From: Symbiodinium sp. CCMP2592
Taxonomy: Eukaryota > Sar > Dinophyceae > Suessiales > Symbiodiniaceae
Direction of reading: 5' to 3'
Length of the DNA: 64,000 bases
Assembly (NCBI GenBank): GCA_905221615.1
Contig: CAJNDT010000315.1
Location: 1 to 64,000 of the forward strand
Shown here: positions 3,871 to 64,000 of the stretch, piece by piece
Layout: each line of letters starts with the position of its first letter
Numbering within the stretch: the first letter of the stretch is position 1
Notes under the pieces: generated by a model
What the model saw: the letters and a program-made list of their open reading frames with translations, nothing else
Told to the model about the DNA's origin: nothing
The model's database searches: none
Translations under genes and position numbers: made by a program

Positions 3871-6800
3871 TTAGAGTTGAGGGTTTTGCATTTCAGGTTT
3901 GGGGCGCTGGACCCTAAACCCTAAACCGCAGGGTTTGGGCTGAGGGGCTTGGGGTTTATGGTTCAGTGCGGCCCTGCCTGCAGCTGGATCTGAGATCGCA
4001 TAGTTTGCCGAGTCTGAGGAGGCACCGGCTGGGACAGTGGACTTCTTTTTCTTTCGTTTCTTCTTTTTGGGCGGGCGTGGGGTTTGTGGTTTGGGCTGTT
4101 GGGATGATTGGGGCTTCTGCGATGATTTGAAAGGGCCACCGCAATAAGGGACCACGATGGAGCCATGGCTGCCAGCGAACTCCCTCAAGGTGTCCAGATA
4201 CCTCCACCATCACAGAGAAGAAGCCGGGGGTACTTCGAGGTAGAGAACAGAGAACCCTAAACCCTCAACCAACCCTAAACCCTAAACCAACCCTAAACCC
4301 CTGTAAACCCCAAACCCTAAACCTACCCTCCCTAAACCAACCATAAAGGGCTAAAGAGACATGGAAAAAGCGACTCTGTGCAAAACGAGGCACTGGGTCA
4401 TGATCATCATCTGCACCGCCTCTTTCTCGCTCATGCCACTGTCCTTCATAAATAAGACAGTAATAAAAATAGCAAAGATAAGGATGATGATACTAGCAAT
4501 GATAATGATGGTTGCTACTACGTAGTATATACTTAGTATATATGGTTAGAATTACGACTATTGTATTCATATCTTATTAGGAGCACCTTCATGAACTTCA
4601 TGGAGTCTTGGAACCCCCGCGCCATGGCTGCACGCATGTTGGCCATGCCCACGCCGGCCAGGCGCTTGGCTTCGGCATCAGCTTCTGAGGCCTCCACCCG
4701 TTTCGTGTTCAGGTTTGTAGGCGCCTTAATAATTAGAAGAGGGTTTTGGGGCCCATCATACTATAGCTAGCATAAGGAACCCTAGGTAATTATTAAAGCC
4801 CCTACAGTATGCGGCTTAAGGACCTCCCGGCGAGCCACCCTTGGGTTCTGTAACAACCCTTAGCCTTAATACTTTCCTAGTCCTTCAACCCTGAAACATA
4901 AACTTTACACTCCACCATCCCTCGACCCCCAAGCCCGTGACATGGGAGGCCAATTTGTAGGATCCTTGATATGGGTAGTTGTCAAAATGAGGGTCCCTTT
5001 TATTGGGTCCTTATTATAATACGGCACCTATCATTTAGGGTACCCAAAAAGGGATCCTAATTCCCCAAAAAACTCCAGAGATCTAGCTGTTGTAGAAGCC
5101 CATCCCCAAGCCGCGCTGAGAAACCCTATTCAGCCCGGGTTTAAGTTTAGAGCCTTACGCTAAACCCTCGACCCTAAACCCCAAACCCTCAACCCTAAAC
5201 CCTAAACCCCAAAACCCAAAACCCTAAACCCTACGCCCTAAACCCTGAACCCTAAACCCTAAACACTAAGCCCTAAACCCCTAACCCCCTAAACCCTACA
5301 CCCTACGCCCTTAAACCCTAAACCCTCAACCCTAAACCCTCAAAGAGCCCTGGTATAGCAACGGCTCTGGGCCTTAGTAAGTAAGGTTATAAGTAGGCTA
5401 TACTTAGGATAACCCCACTTAGGGGACTTATAACCCCACTTATAACCTACTTACTAAGTCCCATGATCCTCCAAAACCCCTATAGATCCCTTGAAGGAGC
5501 CCCTTAAAGGTACCCCTTATAGATCCCTTTAAAGGAGCCCCAGGATTTATATCATCAAATCTGCAGCTCCTTAAAGAGCCCAACCTCTAAGTATAACCTA
5601 AACTACCCCTTATAGAACCTGTATATTATAGATCCCTGAACCCTAAACCCTTTAAGGAGCCCTTTAAGGAACTCTAAGTCACTAAACCCTAAACCTAGAC
5701 CCAAGAGTAACCCAGGCAAAAAAAGGATGCCCTTTTTGGTTTAAAGGGGCTTATAAGGGAACCTGAACCCTAAAAAAGGGAATAAGGGCCTACTCTGGGT
5801 CCTAGCTAAACCCTAAACCCTAAACCCTAAACCCTAAACCCCCCAAACCCTAAACCCTAAACCCTAAACCCTAAACCCTAAACCCTAAACCCTAAACCCT
5901 AAACCCTAAACCCTAAACCCTAAACCCTAGTGGAGCAACGGCTCTGGGCCTCGATCCTCAAGAGCTTCTCGGCCTCGCCCTTCTCAAACGCGGCCTCACC
6001 TGGGAGTTTCCGAAAATTCGGGGGGGGGTACCTTTAAAGGGATCCTGTAAGGGCTCCTTAACAGGATCTATAAGGGTTCTATAAAGGGTTTAGGGTTTAG
6101 GGCTTCCGAAAATTTGGGGCAACTTTAATTCGGGGCCCTTCTAATAAGGATCCTACTATTTAGGGTACTGTATTAGGGTCCCCTATGTTTGGAAACTAAC
6201 ACCCGAAGCTTAGAGTGTACCAGAGACTCCAATATCCCTTAATCAAGGACAGTTCCTTGAACCATCTCAGGGGTCCTACTATATATTCAGGTATATTCCT
6301 CAATTAAGGGATTTTGGGTAGGCTCGGGGCCAGGGATTATGCGGATTATCGGCATAAGTTTGCGGCTGGGAGTCTTTAAGTAACCAATCTTACGCTACGA
6401 GTGCGGAAGCAATGTCTCAATTTTACAGATAGCGACTATGAACTATATCAAGTTACTCTGAACCCTAAGCCCTGGATGTAGCTAAGTCACGCCGTCTTCT
6501 GGAGGCATTGATTTCGTTCATGGCGTCGAGGACAGACTTTTCGGGACGGATATCAGTGATAAGGACGTTAAGGATGTCATAGCCGTATTGGCCCATGGCT
6601 TTCCTTACGGACACCAACATGCCTCCCACCATCCTCTCCTTGGCTTCGTAGCTCTCGTCGAGGGTCCTTTTTTGGGCAGGGTTGGCATCGTATGAAACAT
6701 GAAAACAGATTTATTCCCACCTTTGGTTTAAGTACCCATCAACATGTAACATGTTACCCAACTACGACTGAGGGTCATGATGGGCATGGTGGACCTCAAG

Positions 6801-7346
6801 ACGTTGTCCACTTCGGCTCTGATCTGATCGAGCGGGCTGGCGATGTCGAATGTTGCCACCTGAGGGCGTGTGAAAACCCCCCGCTAATTTGCTTGACCCT
6901 CAATTCGGTTTTCGTTTCTTCTTACTCTTATCATTTTACAGGACTTTGGATGACTTTGGGACCGCATGATGTAGCATATCTTCGTTACCTTTGTTACTCT
7001 TATCGTCTTGCAAGGAATTCGAGTGGACTCAACTTACGGACGCATCTGCTTGAAAAAGGCTCTCTTGTTCTTAATCCCTCACCTTCACCATGTCTTTGAG
7101 GATTCGGTACTGCACGGCAGTCACCACCAGGACCGTGACATTGTCCTTCGTCTTGCACTCCGACTTGCAGGTGAGTTGGTTCACGGCCAGCGAGACAGAC
7201 TGGACGGTCGCGCATGGGAAACAGATGCAGCTGAGACCCGGCTCCTGCCAGCCCTGGTATTCTCCGAGAAACTGACGCACACCGACGGACCCAGTTGGAA
7301 TGCTAGAAAGGCAGCAGCAAGTCCAGGCGTCGATATTCAACGCCAT
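3871..7346 (-). CDS. HIR/SPFH (band 7) family protein, eight exons
   Basis: Reconstructed minus-strand gene with exons 7346-7083, 6859-6777, 6666-6491, 5999-5950, 5372-5349, 4724-4587, 4443-4394 and 4201-3871, giving 371 codons in one uninterrupted frame. HIR proteins are membrane-associated SPFH scaffolds. Matches to the family follow in order: Cys-rich N-terminus (MALNIDAWTCCC); KTKDNVTVLVVTAVQYRILK; PLDQIRAEVDNVLRSTMP; YGYDILNVLITDIRP; MNEINASRR; EKGEAEKLLRI; EADAEAKRLAGVGMANMRAAM; MSEKEAVQMMIMTQYLDTLREF. Introns 1, 3, 6 and 7 are GT-AG, introns 4 and 5 are GC-AG and intron 2 is GA-AG; the last three types are known in dinoflagellates. The usual HIR length is near 285 residues. Here a Lys-rich tail of about 85 residues follows VVPYCGGPF, so the 3' end of exon 8 is the least certain part. 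Exon 5 (24 nt) and the first codons of exon 6 also rest on splice logic alone. Confidence 0.82.
4202..4393 (-). other. HIR intron 7, contains CCCTAAA array
   Basis: A GT-AG intron of 192 nt: donor CA|GTGCCTCG, acceptor GTGGAG|GTATCTGG. About 90 nt of it (4250-4340) is CCCTAAA on the plus strand, which is TTTAGGG in the transcript. GT is shared at the two junctions. Confidence 0.65.
4444..4586 (-). other. HIR intron 6 with 7-nt junction repeat
   Basis: A GT-AG intron of 143 nt. ATGAAGG occurs at both junctions (ATGAAG|GTGCTC and ATGAAG|GACAGT), so the precise cut is ambiguous by several nt, but the protein is unaffected. The interior is AT-rich with TAGTATATACTTAGTATATA. No known MITE family was recognised in it. 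Confidence 0.65.
4720..4806. mobile_element. MITE-like family B at the 3' end of HIR intron 5
   Basis: The plus strand begins GGCGCCTTAATAATTAGAAG and ends GGTAATTATTAAAGCCCC, the inverted termini of family B. Read in the gene direction, the element ends AATTATTAAG|GCGCC, and that AG is the inferred acceptor for exon 6. The terminus would then continue into the exon, giving the codons Ala-Pro-Thr. Confidence 0.65.
4973..5076. mobile_element. MITE-like family D inside HIR intron 5
   Basis: Begins GGGTAGTTGTCAAAATGAGG. The far end is a degenerate TTTGGGGAATTAGG in reverse complement. The centre contains ATTATAATACGGCACC, shared with the copies at 23116-23216 and 44936-45030. Confidence 0.6.
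5150..5345. repeat. CCCTAAA array in HIR intron 5
   Basis: A run of CCCTAAA, CCCCTAAA and CCCTACGCC variants. In the transcript sense this is TTTAGGG, which contains TAG|GG, a sequence resembling a 3' splice site. Confidence 0.75.
5373..5465. mobile_element. MITE-like family C at the 3' end of HIR intron 4
   Basis: The plus strand runs CCTTAGTAAGTAAGGTTATA to TATAACCTACTTACTAAG, a long terminal inverted repeat. Its left end supplies the TACTAAG acceptor in the gene direction. Further family C copies lie at 13436-13536 and 43862-43935, with a relative of longer terminus at 24727-24858 and 44036-44167. Confidence 0.7.
5697..5795. mobile_element. Dispersed repeat, family K
   Basis: Shares GGCTGCCCTTTTTGGGTTAAAG-like text, CTTATAAGGGAACC and GGGAATAAGGGCCTACT with 8748-8853. 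The termini are weak and its boundaries are approximate. Confidence 0.5.
5810..5928. repeat. Longest uninterrupted CCCTAAA run
   Basis: About 16 perfect or near-perfect CCCTAAA heptamers, interrupted once by CCCCCC. This is the most regular telomere-type run in the window, and it lies inside an intron rather than at an end. Confidence 0.9.
6003..6199. mobile_element. Family E MITE plus an isolated family E terminus in HIR intron 3
   Basis: A full copy runs 6105-6199 (TTCCGAAAATTTGGGG to CCTATGTTTGGAAAC). An extra terminus (GTTTCCGAAAATTCGGGG) lies at 6003-6029. In the gene direction that terminus ends ATTTTCGGAAACTCCCAG| directly against exon 4, so it carries the acceptor. Between them is a TTTAGGG-containing stretch. 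Confidence 0.6.
6220..6318. mobile_element. MITE-like family A in HIR intron 3
   Basis: The left end, CCAGAGACTCCAATATCCC, is intact. The right end is degenerate (AATTAAGGGATTTTGGGT). The middle shares AGGGGTCCTACTATA and AGGTATATTCC with other copies. Confidence 0.55.
6667..6776 (-). mobile_element. HIR intron 2: MITE family F forms a GA-AG intron (introner-like)
   Basis: GACCCTC occurs at both junctions (AT|GACCCTCAGT and AAAAAAG|GACCCTCGAC). The only cut leaving an AG acceptor gives a GA donor. Almost the whole 110 nt aligns with family F copies at 40973-41070 and 41789-41885: TAGTTGGGTAACATG, TGATGGGTAC, GGGAATAAA, then degenerate CCAACCCTG. The intron is in effect one MITE with target-duplication-like edges. 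Confidence 0.72.
6860..7082 (-). other. HIR intron 1
   Basis: A GT-AG intron of 223 nt with donor ATGGTGAAG|GTGAGG and acceptor CGCCCTCAG|GTGGCA. AGGTG is shared by the two junctions. No MITE or telomere-like block was recognised in it. Confidence 0.7.
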
Positions 7347-8222: not shown

Positions 8223-9000
8223 GCCTAAGCCTCATAGGCCTCAAAAGAGGAAACCCAAGCAACAACACTCAAAACCTGAACCCATAAGCTTTTGCAGAAC
8301 TTCAAAAACACATCTAACACCTGGTTATTCAAGAACCCTCGTACGTGCCTCAAGCCCGAAATTGCTAGACAAAGCCCTGAACCATGCAAATCCAAAACCC
8401 TAAACTATTCAGGGTTAAGGTAAATCCTAAACGCCCTAAACCCGAAAAGCCCTAACCCCTAAACCCTAAGCCTCAACCCTTAAAAATCTTAAAACAAGGC
8501 AAGACCCCGAGACCCCAAAAAATGTTAAGGTAAACCCCCAACACACCCAAAGATGTCGCCTAAACCCTAAACCCCTAGAAACCCCTAAACACCCCCTAAG
8601 CCCTCAATCCTAAACCCTAAACCCCTAAACCCAAAACCCACCCCCAACACACCCAAAGATGTCGCCGAGTTTTCGTCACGCTCTTCCCAGCTTTAGGCCG
8701 CTTTTGGGATCCACCTCGTGGCGAAAGCATGTCGTTTCATTTAGGGCTAGACCTAGGAGTAACTTAGTAATAAAAAGGCTGCCCTTTTTGGGTTAAAGGG
8801 TGCTATAAGGGAACCTAAACCCTCAAAAAGGGAATAAGGGCCTACTATGGGTCCATGTCGTTTCATTTAGGGCTGAGGGTTTAGGGCTTTCAGGGTTTAG
8901 GGTATTAAGGTTTAGGGTGTAGGGTTGAGGGTTTACGGTTTTAGGGTTGAGGGTTTAGGGCGATTTTAGGGTTCAGGGTTTAGCTTAAGTGGTGAACCCT
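8223..9000. repeat. Telomere-like text and family K element
   Basis: Degenerate CCCTAAA at 8400-8645, including a repeated ACACACCCAAAGATGTCGCC block (near 8542 and 8648). A family K element lies at 8748-8853. The array then changes strand to TTTAGGG at 8870-8995. No gene. Confidence 0.6.
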
Positions 9001-9958: not shown

Positions 9959-10279
9959 CCCCCCCCCCCGACGTACCTACCTATTTGGTGTGTTTGTCTC
10001 CATGTGTTGAACACTTCGACGTATTACAAAGACTCTGTGAGCCAGATACAACAGCTATTGATGTGTAAACAATCTTCTTTTGACATGGTGCAACTGTCAC
10101 ACATGGGCCACTGAAGTAGGCCCACTACGATAATAATATGATTACAGTCATTCACTTATTAACTGTATCACCATAGTCTTCGCAACACCATGCAGCTATT
10201 GTTATCAATTGGTGTTACTAAAAGAAGTTGCCCTTCCATCTATATATGCTGGTTGTTGACAAAAAATGATTTAACGCGC

Positions 10280-11352
10280 AACCTCTAACCAACTGAACTA
10301 GTGTTATTTCAACGATTATGAATTAATCTCCATAGTCTTTTACTCTTCTAGGCATAACATTAGTAGCCACTTAGATGTAATGGTGTAGACGGTAACATAA
10401 TACCACTGGAACACAACTACCATGAATAACCTAGATAACTTAACTTGCTACAACTACTAAACATAGCTAACCTAAACCATTCATACCACTAGCTGTTAAC
10501 CTACTGTTAGTAAGTCATGTTGATCCTGTTATCAACCATACTTCATCTGACTGTACATATAATAGACTGAACAGAATAGCAATGACTGTACCTAATGATA
10601 AGACACAAGGAAAGCGTGCAACAACATGATAAGAGTCATGTAAATCTATGTCAGCATTTCTTATTTAGCCAAGTACAATTCCAGTTGGACCACCTACTAT
10701 ATACAGTTTATATGAAAGATCTACTATACCAGAGAGCATTAGCTGTGAACTAGTATCAGTAATTATGCATTAGGTATTCAGATATAGAGAACACCAACTA
10801 AAAGATCTTAACGAACCAGTTGGTACTCATATTATCAATTTACTAAGTTGTAAAGTTAGCTCTTGTATCACTATTCCATACTATTTGTAAATATATGATG
10901 TGGCCAAACTAAACTTTGCTAATAGACAAATACAACTCATAGCTAAGATCATAAATAAGGTAACCAAGACGTGTAATATGCCAATTACTGTCAAACTATT
11001 GAATACCAACTGGTCCAAAGAACCCAACAAATGTTGGTAGAGTATAGGATCACCTCCAAAGTATGGTTCATAGAATATTGTATTACCGTGTATACCTGTT
11101 AATAACATTAGCAAAGCTCCTGTCAATATTGGTAGCCTATTAACAAAATATATGATGTAATCCCAACTGATCTGGTTATATGTTGATAAAGTAACTAAAC
11201 GTAAACCTAATAATCTCATAATATGACAACTAACACAGAAGTTATAAAGATGTTAATGTTGATGATAGACCTGATGTAATGAAACTGTAGCTAGTAAGAC
11301 TGGTACCATAAGTTGCAAATGAGATTAATGAAGTACTAATAATACAAACCAT
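10280..11352 (-). pseudogene. cox1: Nuclear copy of mitochondrial cox1, decayed (NUMT)
   Basis: The minus strand carries successive blocks of cytochrome c oxidase subunit I in the correct order: STSLISF and LSSTLTS (11340-11250); [39 protein letters not shown]; after a +1 shift GFFGPVGI (family FFGHPEVYI); [10 protein letters not shown] (family GYLGMI); VPTGSLRSFSW; GGPTGIVLG (10668-10694); DIDLHDSYHVVARFPCVLSL (10588-10656); NVMPRRVKDYGD (10323-10360). The active gene is an inner-membrane oxidase subunit. This copy covers roughly the C-terminal two thirds and has several frameshifts and in-frame stops. The His-Pro pair of the HPEVY motif is lost. It is AT-rich compared with its flanks, as expected for transferred mtDNA. 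Confidence 0.88.
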
Positions 11353-11617
11353 TCCTCTTATGATTACAGGATATTTATGGCTATCAACTATGTGCTAACT
11401 GTTATCATCCTACTAAGTACGTTTGTTGCTACTCATTCCATTTCATACCATTACAGTCTATCAACATCTGGGGGCTATGGGGCCCTGGGACTACAGGTGC
11501 CTACCTCACATAGCAGGTGTTTCAACGCATAAGACTTAGCCTGGCCATCTTGAGACGTCTTCTGGCACTCAGGATATTGACGACTGATTAAAGCCTTGAT
11601 CTTCAATCCTCACAACT

Positions 11618-12390
11618 AGAATGTGTGCCACTTTTATTGTTTTTTTCCAGTTCCAATGCTTTGGACTCCTGTGTGCCATTTTTATTGGTTTTTCCACTGT
11701 TTCCGAGTTTCAGAAGCCGAAAACATTGGAAAAACCAATAAAAACCATAAAAACCATGATTTGCAATCTATGTCCAGGCGCGACACCACTTCCCGGGCGA
11801 TAGTTTGAAAATCATGGTTTTTTATGGTTTTTATTGGTTTTTCCAATGTTTCGGACTCCTTGTGTGCCACTTTTATTGGTTTTTCCAATGTTTCCGAGTT
11901 TCAGAAACCGAAAACATTGGAAAAACCAATAAAAACCATAAAAACCATGATTTTCAATCTATGTCCAGGCGCGACACCACTTCTCGGGCGATAGTTTGAA
12001 AATCATGGTTTTTATGGTTTTTATTGGTTTTTCCAATGTTTTGAGCTCCTTGTATGCGTTTTTATTGGTTTTTCCAATGTTTCGGACTCCTTGTGTGCCA
12101 CTTTTATTGGTTTTTCCAATGTTTCCGAGTTCCAGAAACCGAAAACATTGGAAAAACCAATAAAAACCATAAAAACCATGATTTTCAATCTATGTCCAGG
12201 CGCGACACCACTTCCCGGGCGATAGTTTGAAAATCATGGTTTTTATGGTTTTTATTGGTTTTTCCAATGTTTTGAGCTCCTTGTATGCGTTTTTATTGGT
12301 TTTTCCAATGTTTTGGATTCCCTGTGTGCCATTTTTATTTTTTTTTCTAGTGTTTTTGGTTCCCTGCATGACACATTTATTGGTATTTCC
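11618..12390. repeat. Array of long hairpin repeats beside the cox1 pseudogene
   Basis: Alternating direct and inverted copies of a module with ACATTGGAAAAACCAATAAA, AACCATAAAAACCATGATTT, a GC-rich core (CAGGCGCGACACCACTTCC, CGGGCGATAG) and the inverse arm. The core recurs near 11756, 11946 and 12178. Each core sits in a predicted stem longer than 50 bp. ORFs of 60 to 163 codons here follow the repeat and are not genes. Confidence 0.8.
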
Positions 12391-18544: not shown

Positions 18545-18667
18545 CTAGTTCATGGTCGGGATAGTATTAAAAGTCTACATTCGCATTCCTTTCCGGTTTA
18601 GGTACCCATAAGCAACCCTAAACCCTAAACCCTAGCCCGTGTAAACTGTTTCCCAACTATGGCAAAG
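18545..18667. mobile_element. MITE family F copy interrupted by CCCTAAA
   Basis: TAGTTCATGGTCGGGATAG at the left and TTTCCCAACTATGGCAAAG at the right match family F. Between TACCCATAAGC and GTAAACTG the copy contains an extra AACCCTAAACCCTAAACCC block that the copies at 40973 and 41789 lack. Confidence 0.65.
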
Positions 18668-38619: not shown

Positions 38620-39140
38620 ACCGCAAGGGTTTGGGGTTTGAGGTTCAGGGGTTAGGGTTTGAGGTTCAGGGGTTAGGGTTTGAGGTTCAGGGGTTAGGGT
38701 TTGAGGTTCAGGGGTTAGGGTTTGAGGTTCAGGGGTTAGGGTTTGAGGTTCAGGGGTTAGGGCTTGAGGTTCAGGGGTTAGGGTTGAGGTTCAGGGGTTA
38801 GGGTTTGAGGTTCAGGGGTTAGGGCTTGAGGTTCAGGGGTTAGGGCTTGAGGTTCAGGGGTTAGGGTTTGAGGTTCAGGGGTTAGGGCTTGAGGTTCAGG
38901 GGTTAGGGCTTGAGGTTCAGGGGTTAGGGTTTGAGGTTCAGGGGTTAGGGCTTGAGGTTCAGGGGTTAGGGCTTGAGGTTCAGGGGTTAGGGTTTGAGGT
39001 TCAGGGGTTAGGGCTTGAGGTTCAGGGGTTAGGGCTTGAGGTTCAGGGGTTAGGGTTTGAGGTTCAGGGGTTAGGGCTTGAGGTTCAGGGGTTAGGGCTT
39101 GAGGTTCAGGGGTTAGGGTTTGAGGTTCAGGGGTTAGGGT
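38620..39140. repeat. 21-bp satellite with higher-order 63-bp period
   Basis: About 24 tandem copies of a 21-bp monomer (TTTGAGGTTCAGGGG followed by TTAGGG). Monomers differ by TTTGAGG or CTTGAGG. From about 38800 to 39125 the order is T-C-C repeated five times, a three-monomer higher-order unit. The left third is uniform T type. Confidence 0.9.
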
Positions 39141-40107
39141 TTAGGGTTTAAGGTTCAGGGCTTCAGGTTTAGGGTTTAACGTTCAGGGGTTAAGGTTTTC
39201 TTTTAGTTTAGGGTTCAGGTTTGAGGTTTTGGGTTTAGGGAGAGACATTCAGCCGTACGCACCAAAACAGGAGTCTCAAGAAGACCTCATCATACCCCCA
39301 TATTTCACTGACGTCCGTATGTGACACCTCAAGTCGCGACTCCTAGACATCCTCCGGGGCTTGTACGTAATTCGAAAAGCCTTGAACCCAGTCTAGACCG
39401 ATCACTGTTCCTGCCATTCCTGTGGGTGTTTAGGGCTTTAGGTTTTTAGGGTTTAGGGTTTTAAGGTTTAGGGTTTTAGGGTTTAGGGTTTAGAAGGATT
39501 CCTGTGGGCTTTGGGGCTCAACCGCTCATGCAATCCTTGTCTGGGAGGTTGTACACTGAATCAAGCTGGTAGTTGTTACAGTTTAGGCTTTAGGGTTGAC
39601 GGGTAGAAGCCCGGTCGTAACCCACTCTTTTCTTTGCGCGTCCGCTGCAGGGAAACCTGAGAGGTCTCACCAGGAAGTGGGAGGAGAGCGTGGAGTCATG
39701 TAAAAGTCTAGTTAGAAAAACGATTCTAATATGGCTTGGCCTTCTTGGAGAGGAGTCTCAATATGCCAGAAGACATAAACTCGAATTTAAGGCCCTGCTG
39801 AAATTTGAAATTCTACCTTAATCCCTTTATTAAGACCTCGAGGAAAAGATGATTACTAATCGAGGTAATCCATCAAAACTGGAGGCCAAAAGGGTGGTTC
39901 AAGATTCTTGCGGAGTATGAACCCTATTATGGGAACCCTAATCCCTACTAAACCCCCATACGCTAAAACCCCTGTTGGCCTCCTATGAATTACGACTAAG
40001 ATGAACCCTAAATCCTAAACCCTAAACCCTAAAAATACAGAACGACTGGAAGGTCGACTTTGCATCGGGCAGGGGCTACGGCTTCGGGGTTTAGGGCTTC
40101 AGTCATA
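39141..40107. other. Telomere-like tracts and unassigned sequence
   Basis: TTTAGGG at 39140-39240 and 39425-39495, CCCTAAA at 40000-40035. No gene recognised. Confidence 0.4.
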
Positions 40108-40972: not shown

Positions 40973-41070
40973 TAGTTCATGGTTGGGATAGGATTAACAA
41001 TTTACATGTTTATTCCTTATTGGGTTATGTACCCATAAACATGTAAAATGTTACCCAACTATGACAAAGA
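40973..41070. mobile_element. MITE-like element, family F
   Basis: TAGTTCATGGTTGGGATAGG to TTACCCAACTATGACAAAGA, with ACATGTTTATTCCTTATTGG and TACCCATAAACATGTAAAAT inside. It aligns along its length with HIR intron 2. Confidence 0.75.
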
Positions 41071-41787: not shown

Positions 41788-41885
41788 CTAGTTCATAGTT
41801 GGGATAGGATTGAAAATTGAATTTGTTATTCCTTATTGGGTTTGAGTACCCATAAAAATGTAAAATGTTACCCAACTATGACAAA
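41788..41885. mobile_element. MITE-like family F with 5-bp target duplication
   Basis: GAGCA occurs on both sides (41783-41787 and 41886-41890). The body is more than 85 percent identical by eye to the 40973 copy. The upstream plus-strand text reads VCMEHSVLLLQKVMTCLST and may be an exon edge. Confidence 0.75.
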
Positions 41886-41889
41886 GAGC

Positions 41890-55639: not shown

Positions 55640-55922
<283 letters not shown>

Positions 55923-56017
55923 CTGCCTTAGGATTGTGGGTTTAAGACTTAGGAGGGCCCGAATTTCCTCATCAGCGAGGCATGTCGTAGAGCCCCAGTT
56001 CCCATGCAATTGCTCCA

Positions 56018-56950
56018 ATGGAGAAGGGAACGACCCAGATCTCGTACGTGGTGTGGAAGCTATTCTTTGGGATCGCCCTCTCGAGGAGAAGCCTGTCTGC
56101 AGATGAAGTTGCCCTGAACGAGATCATGTCATGCAGATGGTTGTTCAGCCGGGTTTTCAACCAGGGCAGCCAACTACCCAACAGCCTGCAGGGGTTCATT
56201 CTTGGCTATGCGTTCAAACGGAGTTTGGCGCGAATCCAACTACCCCGCAGCCTGAAGAGGTTCGCCTTTGGTCGCCATTTCAACCAGGTCCTGGAAGGCA
56301 TCCGACTACGCAGCAGCCTGCACAGTACATGTGATCTCCGTTTCAACCAGAGCTTGGAGGGCATCCAATCACCCGGCAGCCTGCGGAGTTTGACGTTCGG
56401 TCGCCATTTACACCAGAGCTTGGAGGGCATCCACGCACCCAGCAGGCTGCAGAGTCTGACGCTCGGCAGTGCATTCAAGCAGGGCCTGGATGGCATCCGG
56501 CTACCCAGCGGCCTGCGGAGTTTCACGTGTGGCTGCCATTTCAACCAGCGTCTGGAGAGCATCCAATGTCTCAGTAACCTGTGGATTTTGACGTTTGGTT
56601 CGCATGTCGACCTGAGCTTGGAGGGCATCCCATTACCCAGCAGCCAGCAGCTTCTGAGGCTTGGCTATGCATTCAACCAGGGCCTGGATGGAATCCAAAT
56701 ACCCAGCAACCTGCAGAGTTTGACGCTCGGCTTTGCATTCACCCAGAGCCTGGACTGCGTCCGACTACCCAACAGCCTGCAGAGTTTCATGTTTGGTTGC
56801 CATTTCAACCGGATTTCGGAGAGCATCCAATTACCCAACAGCCTGCAGAGTTTGATGTTCTGCTATGCCTTCAACCAGAGCCCGCAGGGCATCCAAGTAA
56901 CCCCCACAACCTTCAGAGTTGACGCGAAGGCGAGATCGACTGTGAGGTAG
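56018..56950 (+). CDS. FNIP-repeat (leucine-rich repeat type) protein
   Basis: An ORF of 310 codons containing about 12 tandem 22-residue units of the form LPxSLQSLTFGxxFNQSLEGI, from about residue 45 to 296. Clear units include LPNSLQSFMFGCHFNRISES and LPSGLRSFTCGCHFNQRLES. This matches the FNIP repeat (pattern LPxSLxxLxFGxxFNQPL), a solenoid thought to mediate protein contacts, abundant in Dictyostelium and in dinoflagellates. The first 40 residues may not be coding: the opposite strand at 55972-56160 is also open (IWVVPFSIGAIAWELGLYDM). No membrane segment or catalytic domain is visible. The unit DNA is 66 bp, and two repeat-shadow frames with ITQQPA motifs should be ignored. The gene may have further exons. 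Confidence 0.75.
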   Translation: MEKGTTQISYVVWKLFFGIALSRRSLSADEVALNEIMSCRWLFSRVFNQGSQLPNSLQGFILGYAFKRSLARIQLPRSLKRFAFGRHFNQVLEGIRLRSSLHSTCDLRFNQSLEGIQSPGSLRSLTFGRHLHQSLEGIHAPSRLQSLTLGSAFKQGLDGIRLPSGLRSFTCGCHFNQRLESIQCLSNLWILTFGSHVDLSLEGIPLPSSQQLLRLGYAFNQGLDGIQIPSNLQSLTLGFAFTQSLDCVRLPNSLQSFMFGCHFNRISESIQLPNSLQSLMFCYAFNQSPQGIQVTPTTFRVDAKARSTVR

Positions 56951-60715: not shown

Positions 60716-62287
60716 TCAGAGCGGTCTGGCGAGAATCTGTTTGGTTACAGTAGCTCGACCCTGTACAAATTGACCGACATGTGCACGCGCCCGTAGGAGC
60801 CGAGCATTGCGAATCCCGACAACAAGACCGTCAAGAGCAAAACGAACCCCTAAGTCAGCAAGACTGATGTTGCCAACACACATGTGCTCGAGCCCCAGGC
60901 ATCGCAAAGCTGGGCGCATTGCCCGTCGAACTAAACTAAGCCTCACAGCCACCGTATGCTCTGGCGGAGAAAACACAAGCGTCGCCGGATCCTGCCAGTG
61001 GCCCTGGTTGTCGCAGACTGGGTAAGGGTAGTGGCCTTCATGGTGTAGCAAAAAGACAAACTCCAGCCATGACAAAGTGTATGCCTCCTCCGCCTCCGCG
61101 TCCAGGCGGAAAAGAAAGGTGCACAACTGTTGTATAAAGCCGACCGGCAATCGGCATTGCACTCCGTCAAGCATAGGCTGCCAATTGATAGGCAGTACAT
61201 CTTCCAAATCAAGTCGCCTTGGCACGGTGCCCGGTGAAGGTACCAACTCCTCGGGGTCTTCTGTCGATGGGTCGATGTTCGAGTCCGAAGTGGATGTGTT
61301 GTGTGCTGCGACAGCAAAGAAGATGGAACGCAAACTGCGGATGATGCGTAATGTCTGCCTGTGGTAGCGGAGCGCGCTTTGGTGGACATCAACCAGTGCA
61401 GCAGGCCTGTTGCGATTGCTGAGCACGGCCAGGAGGTCCGCGTGTGCATTATGCTGGGCCAGCCAGTCCTCAAAAGGGCTGTCCGTGAGGCGGTCGTCCA
61501 GGTGGGACGGAGTATGCCGAGCCTGAAAGCGATGTGCCGGAAGTTGTTCCAGCAGCGCTGCCAAGTCCTGCCAGAGATCTGTATCCGCAAAGTGGGAAAA
61601 GTCGCCCCCATCCTGAATCAGTGTCACACCATCACAAACAGCCTGAGCATCGCACCAAACGAAACAAGGTAAGCCAAAACGTAGGGCCCACCTCGCTGCC
61701 GCTGTCATCGCTGTAAACTCTGCTCTGGGAGCGGTCTGGTGGATCCCAGGCAATGCCCCGCAAGCCAGCGCAGTGTTGTGCTGCGCATGCACAAGTCCCC
61801 AGCCAGCCAAAGCAAAGTCCATGTGTTCGTGATCGACACAAGATCCATCGGTAAACAGATGCTGCCAGCCAGAACCGAACCCTGAACAGAAGAAAACCCC
61901 CGTAGTATCCGTCGTGTGCTGCAGCAAGTAGCGGAGGCGTGGCAAGAAAGGATTAGCCGCTGGCAACAGATGGTGCGTCAAAGACAGAGGGAGTGTGGGC
62001 CACAGGTCACATACCCACTGGTGCTCCGCTCGTGCAGCGGCGTGGCGCTCGCAATGACAAATGCGGGGTGCGACAGTGTCCGGAACACCACATGTGGGGC
62101 ATTCGCCGGATTGGCTCAAATCATAATATGAGTGCTGGTGCCCAAACAGGAACGCGCCGGAGCGAATGGCCGCTTCGCGGGCGCCATCGAGGGCCGATAG
62201 TGTCCGGGAGTCCGCATGCAGAAGAGCCACATCAAGTCCCGATAGGTCAGCCATGGCAAAACCGATGGTTGTGGGAGCGGGCGACAT
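60716..62287 (-). pseudogene. LINE C-terminal part: zinc finger and RNase H
   Basis: 523 codons. Residues 33-52 (LDGAREAAIRSGAFLFGHQH) are followed by a CPTCGVPDT zinc finger at 63-71 with later His/Cys (HCERH). The type I RNase H domain is complete in its acidic residues: D147 in LFTDGSC, E190 in PRAEFTAM, D213 in VWCDAQAV and D284 in NAHADLLA. RNase H removes the RNA strand during reverse transcription. The listed start is arbitrary; the true reading frame enters from the RT through a frameshift. Confidence 0.8.
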
Positions 62288-62492
62288 GCTGAAGCCACGC
62301 GTGTTCCAGCAAACGCCTCAAGAGAGCCTTTGGCAGGCGCAAGAAGTTATGCACTAGCCCCTCATGGTCCTGAACTAAAGGTGGTTGTGGGACGCTCCAG
62401 CCAACCTTAGCAAGAGCCAGGCCAAGTTTTGTAAAAGGGCCGTGCAGGCGAGCACCGTCGAAGTGGGAGGCGAATTGATGCCAACACTGCAA
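62247..62492 (-). pseudogene. LINE segment displaced into another frame
   Basis: Between the RT frame and the RNase H frame, the protein-like text lies in a third frame: LQCWHQFASHFDGARLHGPF, then TKLGLALAKVGWSVPQPPLV and KALLRRLLEHAWLQHVARSH. The flanking frames hit stops here. Two compensating frameshifts bracket this 230-bp stretch. Confidence 0.65.
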
Positions 62493-64000
62493 GAAGTTGG
62501 TAGCTTGCCCGCCATCCGTCTAATCTCGCTGACGCAAGCCCAAAGTTCATAAAATCCCGGATCGGCCGTCATGGGATTGGAGAGGCTCAGTCGGAGCAGG
62601 GAAGAAGAACCACCGGGGCGGATGTTGAGGGCGGCCGTGGCAGCGGTGCGCAGGCGGTGGATGGTGGCATCGGCCAACGGGGCTCCAGAGCAACCATGGA
62701 GGGCCTTTGCCCAACACTTGGCAGGAAGAACCAGCAGTTTAAGGCAACCTGGTGCCCGAGAGCGACGCAGCGCTTTCCAGATGAGCGTCAAAGCCAAGCA
62801 GCAATCGCGAACCACAGCATTCCGGACACGGGCCCCGAACGAGAGTACACCGCCCAACTCCCGGGCGGCCTCCACCACAGGAAAGCCCAACCCCTTGATG
62901 GCCTTGCGACATGCAGGCTGCGTGGCCCAAACAAAGGTCTTTAAAGAGTCCAGCTGGAGACGGAGCAGATCCATGAAGCACTGGACCAGCGTGCAGGCTC
63001 GCGCCAAAGATGCGGGAGAGTGAGTGGTGCAAGCCAGGTTGTCGACATAGCTCAAAGAGCGAATCGACGGCGCGAAGACCTGCATATATGAGTGGAAGGC
63101 CCAGTCGGCCAGCACCATAGCAACAGGGCTCAGGGGACAACCTTCGGGGAAACCCGATGTGGACCGAAGCGGAGGGCCCACCTGGCCACGGATCAAAAAG
63201 CGACGTTCAGTGCCTTGAAGAAAAGAAGTCCAAGGTGCAAGGAGCCGCCAAGGAAAACCAACTTGGGAGGCCAATGCAAGCAGTGGTAAGCGGGGCAGGT
63301 TATTGAAGCACTTGATGATATCCGTGGAGAGACCCAACATGGGGGTACGGCCCTGGCAACTAAGCTCAACCTCAAGCTGCAAACTGAACCAGAGCTCGGC
63401 AGCCTCATGGCCGGGTACAAAGCCAAACAGGCCGTCGGGTACGAGGCGTCGCAAGGCGGAAAGAGTCTGACGGGCCCTGATCCCAGCCCAGGTTCGCTAA
63501 ATCACGGAGTAAAGGCAAATGGGCCGAAAACCCTGGGCATCAGTGCGACCGTTGCGCTTGCTGAGCATGCACACAAAGCCTACCAGCAGTTGTCGAGGCC
63601 ATTCCCGCTCCTCCAGCTCGATGGCTTTCAGGAGAGCCAGCAGTTCTGCCGTGCGACAGGGAGGCAGATGAAGGAGGTCGTCGCGAGCCCAGCCATCGGG
63701 GCCGCGGGCGGCACGCACCTTGAAGCGCCGGAGGGCGGCACACCAGCACGCAGCATCAATGTCAGGCAAATCAAAGGTGTGCCGAGGCATGAAAGCCTTT
63801 GCAAAGTCAAGGAAGCGCTGCCAATCATCAGCAGTAGTGGAAGCATGTTGTTGCCAACGGGGGGCCCATAATTGTTGAAACTCAATACACAAATCGGTCA
63901 CAGAAGAGAGCGTCTGTACCTGCTCAAGTTCTTGGCCGAAAGAAGAAAGGCTTTCCGCAAGTGTGCACACCGTATCATCAGTAGCAATGACCTGAGTGGG
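62375..64000 (-). pseudogene. LINE reverse transcriptase with one internal stop
   Basis: The frame is open from the window edge to 62375 except for TAG at 63497-63499, where related RTs usually have an aromatic residue (FRPICLYSVI*RTWAGI). RT motifs are in order: AARGPDGW (fingers), STDIIKCFN (motif A Asp), GFPEGCPLSP (motif B) and SYVDNL (motif C, YVDN in place of YxDD). The Asn in the last position may be a family trait of dinoflagellate LINEs or a loss. Reads such as the 133- and 154-codon frames overlapping it are shadows. Confidence 0.82.

Follow-up and report, generated by a model that had tools for sequence, protein, structure and literature searches.

A short inverted-repeat element as the probable origin of one intron in an HIR gene of Symbiodinium sp. 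CCMP2592

Which introns of a dinoflagellate gene were made by transposable elements, and which only contain them? The question is raised by an HIR gene (HIRL2, Band 7/SPFH) of Symbiodinium sp. CCMP2592, a strain named S. tridacnidorum in PMC8045281. The gene lies within bases 1-64,000 (hereafter the window) of contig C315 (245,966 bases), which belongs to the 1,098-Mb assembly of this strain. A sequence-only reading of the locus proposed that four unrelated families of miniature inverted-repeat transposable elements (MITEs), namely B, C, E and F out of those here called A to F, supply splice sites in this one gene. We report that intron 2 very probably arose by the insertion of family F, a short DNA element bearing terminal inverted repeats (TIRs), into an exon, and we weigh what the other families contribute.

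The HIR gene and its second intron

The coding span extends over positions 3979 to 7346 of the minus strand. Exons were placed by homology to HIR proteins, with plant HIR as a guide, and by the rule that introns end in AG and are followed by G. Seven exons were obtained on this strand (7346-7083, 6859-6777, 6666-6491, 5999-5950, 4691-4587, 4443-4394 and 4201-3979), with Pfam Band_7 matches in exons 1 and 3, which bears out the HIR gene of the sequence-only reading. The spliced translation is 100% identical, over all 267 queried residues, to the deposited protein P0001 (HIRL2, partial [Symbiodinium sp. CCMP2592]), and this model of seven exons and six introns, in which intron 4 runs from 5949 to 4692, leaves no place for the eighth exon of the sequence-only reading. 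All acceptors are AG, and the donors are GT (introns 1, 3, 5 and 6), GA (intron 2) and GC (intron 4). The gene models of CCMP2592 are described in PMC8045281 as having used transcripts, full-length ones included, and as having permitted GA donors. The product aligns without gaps up to residue 260 with nine related proteins, several of them from named dinoflagellates (the alignments covered 10 of the 120 proteins listed), and none of these nine carries an insert at the position of intron 2. Judging from the deposited protein model and from these homologous proteins, intron 2 is probably spliced out of the RNA.

A second HIR gene was found on another contig (C1010, locus L009, 6427-9144) and serves as a control throughout. 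This paralog carries introns 2, 4, 5 and 6 at the same positions as the window copy, in which intron 5 has 143 bases (GT-AG, 4444-4586, minus strand) and intron 6 has 192 bases (GT-AG, 4202-4393, minus strand). Introns 1 and 3 are missing from the paralog, and an additional intron, private to it (L009 7114-7387), lies 25 coding nucleotides upstream of the window intron 3 site. The two copies also differ at their ends, as the C-terminus of P0001 is unlike the customary ...KGGLFG end: in the window copy (4201-3979, minus strand) the usual HIR tail is gone and a lysine-rich stretch stands in its place, whereas the paralog retains the tail. Intron 5 of the paralog contains another repeat (bases 75-199 of 226, L009 about 8511-8635) that has relatives in L022 and L024 and does not occur in the window copy.

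Intron 2 (6667-6776, minus strand, GA-AG), as defined by the gene model and by alignment to F, consists of a left GACC (6776-6773) that contains the GA donor and an element (6772-6667) that ends in the AG acceptor; it is followed by a right GACC (6666-6663) formed by the first bases of the next exon. Its assignment to family F was upheld: it matches free copies of the window over bases 9-55 of its 110, its second half being recognisable as F in the alignment only, and the 96-base F intron of the paralog matches free F copies over bases 5-88 and 4-84, that is, nearly full length. In the paralog, GACC precedes the element and GACT follows its AG. These target-site duplications (TSDs) were read by position in both HIR copies, as an automatic parser placed the worn 3' ends of F a few bases off.

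The proposed course of events would be as follows. F, mobilised presumably by a transposase acting in trans, would have inserted into an HIR exon and duplicated a 4-bp target, GACC. The last bases of the element itself, AG, would have become the 3' splice site of intron 2, and the duplicated target its 5' splice site, GA being one of the donors used by dinoflagellates. Splicing would then take out the element together with one duplication, and the reading frame would be kept.

Family F elsewhere in the genome

The genome was searched with the F intron of the paralog, which gave at least 40 matches, and 40 of 55 candidates were scored. Measurements were made on 42 copies, namely 36 parsed out of 38 fetched from outside HIR, three free copies of the window (41789-41888 on the minus strand, about 40974-41070, and 18547-18663), one from L014 and the two HIR introns. 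F is an element of about 99 bp with imperfect TIRs (5' CTTTG[TC]CATAGTTGGG, 3' CCCAACCATGAACTAG), which extends in the 42 copies from CTTTG[TC]CATAGTTGGGTAAC through ATCCCAACCATGAACTAG; F-like ends are written as CTTTGYCATAGTTGGG. Its TSD of 4 bp is exact in 24 of the 42 copies, has one mismatch in 5 and is worse in 13. A longer duplication around F, of 15-17 bp, was considered at first and was dropped when further copies gave the 4-bp rule. The last two bases of the element are AG in 29/42 copies. It follows from this ending and from the 4-bp duplication that one orientation gives an acceptor and that the duplication decides whether a donor is present. Of the 29 copies whose two TSDs differ at no more than one position, 13 have a TSD that starts with G (binomial p 0.016 against 25%).

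The element and one TSD were then removed from each copy, the flanks were fused, and the open frame across the join was measured. Four of the 42 joins were open over at least 119 codons in the sense direction and none in antisense. TSDs able to act as donors (G followed by T, C or A) were found in 5 of the 6 open non-HIR copies (at least 99 codons) versus 12 of 34 others, a comparison (one-sided p 0.04) that was counted by hand on groups picked post hoc.

One copy, L071, has the TSD GTAT, which holds a GT donor, and interrupts an exon resembling flavin adenine dinucleotide (FAD)-dependent oxidoreductases and phytoene desaturases. The joined flanks match Pfam NAD_binding_8 (E 1.8e-15) over residues 44-104, a range that includes the junction at residue 59. 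The single alignment shown to a solved flavoenzyme is free of gaps over residues 36-81, thus spanning the junction; the best partial NCBIfam matches are carotenoid desaturases, all under the cut-off. The insert measures 103 bases, which is no multiple of 3, so that the frame would shift if it stayed unspliced. L071 is accordingly, as predicted from its sequence, a second gene, unrelated to HIR, into which an F intron fits exactly. At a third locus, L044, an LRR_6 match covers residues 24-47, short of the junction at residue 60, and a leucine-rich-repeat-like gene with an F intron is plausible only.

F-like sequences are hence seen in introns at non-homologous sites, intron 2 of the two HIR paralogs and L071, and in HIR as in L071 the boundaries of the intron are those of F, the intron being equal to TSD plus element. 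The insertion of F into an exon is directly based on the ends of the element, its TSD, its copies elsewhere, the exact restoration of the frame in HIR and in the oxidoreductase-like gene, and the occurrence of F in both HIR paralogs. F might instead have landed in an intron 2 that already existed, and repeats do enter introns here, as illustrated by B, C and D in intron 4 and by the other repeat in intron 5 of the paralog. However, in each of the two paralogs the flanking exons are separated by F and its 4-bp duplication alone, and L071 repeats this exact fit, which makes the alternative very unlikely.

Several observations nevertheless weigh against an origin of intron 2 from F. The 3' end of F has diverged in both HIR copies, and both score as TSD mismatches in the 42-copy count, where they fall among the 13 worse cases because the parser misplaced their worn 3' ends. 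The median open frame across joins is the same in both directions (65.5 codons in sense and 65.0 in antisense, n = 42), from which it follows that most of the sampled F copies lie outside clear exons. The 38 fetched copies were chosen as the top matches of a query that is itself an intron and are no random sample, and a Pfam match was obtained in only 2 of the 10 joins scanned (L071 and L044), the other eight being without any.

Introns 1, 3 and 4 and the other families

Can the remaining families be credited with splice sites as well? The six HIR introns were searched against the window to locate the families, and the claim that these have copies elsewhere was borne out, with 250 termini of A to F across 244 kb of the contig, or about one per kb. 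Only the ends of F and one end of E sit at HIR splice boundaries, and introns 5 and 6 have no A-F terminus within 25 bp of either end. When the 12 real boundaries were slid circularly along the 244-kb contig in 20,000 random shifts, 8.3% of the shifts brought one or more boundaries to 3 bp or less from an A-F terminus (one, that of E, is observed), and 1.2% brought two or more to 5 bp or less (two are observed, the 5' end of F and E); the worn 3' end of F is missed by the terminus pattern and was not counted as a coincidence.

Intron 4 (1258 bases, GC-AG, 4692-5949, minus strand) contains a C copy at bases 476-587 (about 5363-5477), a D copy at 888-983 (about 4967-5062) and a B copy at 1140-1232 (4716-4806). 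C and B had been proposed to supply acceptors; as that proposal gave no junction coordinates, the acceptors meant were deduced from the positions of the termini. Both copies turn out to lie inside this single intron, the end of C 671 nucleotides and the terminus of B (4716) 24 nucleotides short of its acceptor, so that neither supplies it. Intron 4 of the paralog, 869 bases long and placed at the identical position, gave only short simple or telomere-like matches when compared with 264 kb, and none of the B, C or D MITEs; the simplest view is therefore that B, C and D entered the window copy later, as passengers. The A, B, C and D copies of HIR, located inside introns and away from their ends, look like ordinary high-copy MITEs.

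Copies of A to F were also examined for signs of insertion into exons. Among 82 copies found, 78 were tested, and in none was the open frame across the flanks longer than at 95% of 2000 random sites (maximum 128 codons versus 153 at the 95th percentile; medians of 62 for copies and 66 for controls), so that there is no sign of these copies in exons. None of 10 long open frames of the contig, taken from 206 of at least 110 amino acids, had a Pfam match. In free copies, the TSD was 4 bp and exact in 6/16 for E and in 7/14 for D, and 2 bp in 15/20 for A, all three figures being the best of many offsets tried. That B, C, E and F, as four unrelated MITE families, each give splice sites in HIR has in its favour the termini of F and E at real splice boundaries and the presence of the families in other places, but the positions of C and B within the true intron 4, the paralog intron free of them and the result on the 78 copies render it extremely improbable. 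What stands of the multi-family claim is F; B and C are inside an intron shared with the paralog, and the position of E is compatible with chance.

Intron 3 (491 bases, GT-AG, 6000-6490, minus strand), which has no counterpart in the paralog, is the place where E comes close to a splice site. It contains an A copy at bases 162-271 (about 6220-6329) and an E copy from base 297 (6002-6200), the terminus of which, at 6002, is 2 bp off the last base of the intron, 6000, in the acceptor context CTCCC/AG/GTGA. An insertion of E at an AG/GT target could have founded this intron, in which case F and E would both supply splice sites. This is suggested by the proximity of the terminus, by the absence of intron 3 from the paralog, by the GTGA that flanks the intron on each side and by a second E copy inside an exon of the paralog. 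However, the other end of E is separated from the donor by about 290 nucleotides of other sequence, the A copy included; the duplications of free E copies are AT-rich and of 4 bp; AG adjoins only 1 of the 32 ends of 16 free E copies, no more than by chance; and 8% of placements would by chance give one or more coincidences at the 12 boundaries. We consider a founding role of E unlikely. The terminus noted earlier at this acceptor is indeed present 2 bp away, but taken alone it is within chance, and E is at most a possible contributor to this splice site.

Intron 1 (223 bases, GT-AG, 6860-7082, minus strand), equally without counterpart in the paralog, is flanked on both sides by the direct repeat AGGTG, and no copy of it was found in the 264 kb searched. 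The paralog may have lost introns 1 and 3, instead of the window copy having acquired them, as the comparison rests on two genomic copies, precise loss via reverse-transcribed mRNA leaves clean sites too, and signs of retroposition are reported for the CCMP2592 genome in PMC8045281. Such a loss is nonetheless doubtful: the paralog retains introns 2 and 4-6, between and after the missing ones, so that a single mRNA-templated replacement is no explanation, and the AGGTG repeats on both sides of intron 1 also speak against it.

The E copy in exon 3 of the paralog is a 114-base insert (L009 6912-7025) that lacks about 18 bases of one end of the element and is flanked by a stretch of the exon that is present twice, as exact copies of 26 bases (6904-6929 and 7018-7043), whereas the duplications at free E copies measure 4 bp. 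The insert keeps the frame and contains no stop codon, and it can also be removed as a GC-AG intron; removal across the duplication yields an ordinary HIR protein of 286 residues, the same length as its best match, HIRL2 of S. microadriaticum (P0003). Peptides of E or F inserts were found in none of the 148 HIR relatives retrieved (0/120 in the first list). The insert is a candidate newborn intron. As its 26-base duplication is beyond the TSD of the E family, repair or template switching may have been behind it. Broken MITEs that are trapped while DNA is repaired, or when replication switches templates, may thus be another source of introns in this genome, a route that we propose tentatively and hold to be rather unlikely. 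The C copy in intron 4 could be a second case of capture, since an 18-bp repeat of the boundary between exon 4 and intron 4 (5934-5951, plus strand) has its other copy (5357-5374) beside that C copy, the outer end of which is missing there; this C copy resembles the E insert of the paralog on one side only.

The window has other features. An AT-rich segment at 10000-11450 (36% GC over 10001-12000) holds a minus-strand frame of 123 amino acids with a motif that resembles cox1, perhaps a piece of mitochondrial DNA that has entered the nucleus. Retroelement frames with Reverse transcriptase (PF00078) and RNase H (PF00075) occupy 60719-63496 (minus strand), and a 319-residue frame of FNIP/LRR_5 repeats (55991-56947, plus strand) directly follows changing triplet repeats (about 55640-55920). 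A 21-bp unit forms 26 tandem copies at 38626-39178, and telomere-like TTTAGGG arrays are dispersed across the window.

Relation to known introners

The study of one gene with a paralog as control tells intron formation by one element apart from the mere presence of others within an intron. Claims of many families per gene need such a control because about one A-F terminus per kb makes chance coincidences not rare. That several introner families coexist in a dinoflagellate genome is itself already published, and the contrast drawn earlier with a single introner family is therefore not new. Gozashti et al. (2022, PMC9860276) count 548 introner families in 175 genomes, with 1 to 43 families per genome, and the passage of PMC11453091 that cites Roy et al. 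(2023) gives 12,253 recent introner introns for Polarella glacialis, with 15 families of at least 100 introns, which resembles the present case in the many distinct families of a dinoflagellate genome, albeit of another species. Introners with inverted repeats in other dinoflagellates are also described in PMC10666404 and PMC7789003. The introner elements of Amoebophrya (Farhat et al., 2021, PMC7789003) are like F in their MITE-like inverted and short direct repeats at intron ends; they differ in being defined within the non-canonical introns, in the 3-5 nucleotides of their direct repeats and in their setting, compact parasite genomes.

Families A, D and E are like ordinary MITEs, with about 100 bp, TIRs, a TSD of 2 bp (A) or 4 bp (D and E) and a high copy number. 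F is unlike them in that it ends in AG, E being without AG at its ends. The closest parallel is introner family 1 of S. microadriaticum, a species of the same genus as the host of F, which according to the legend of Fig. 2B in PMC9860276 has a 4-bp TSD, TIRs and a 3' splice site within the element; its 5' splice site is co-opted from the TSD and its length is about 100 bp (115 positions in the example given). The likeness drawn here is one of description, and unlike that family most of the F copies sampled here are not evidently genic. F is thus a further introner, possibly a rediscovered one, and constitutes a defined family of introners in a coral symbiont whose genome is published, while the mechanism by which it makes an intron is already known in Symbiodinium.

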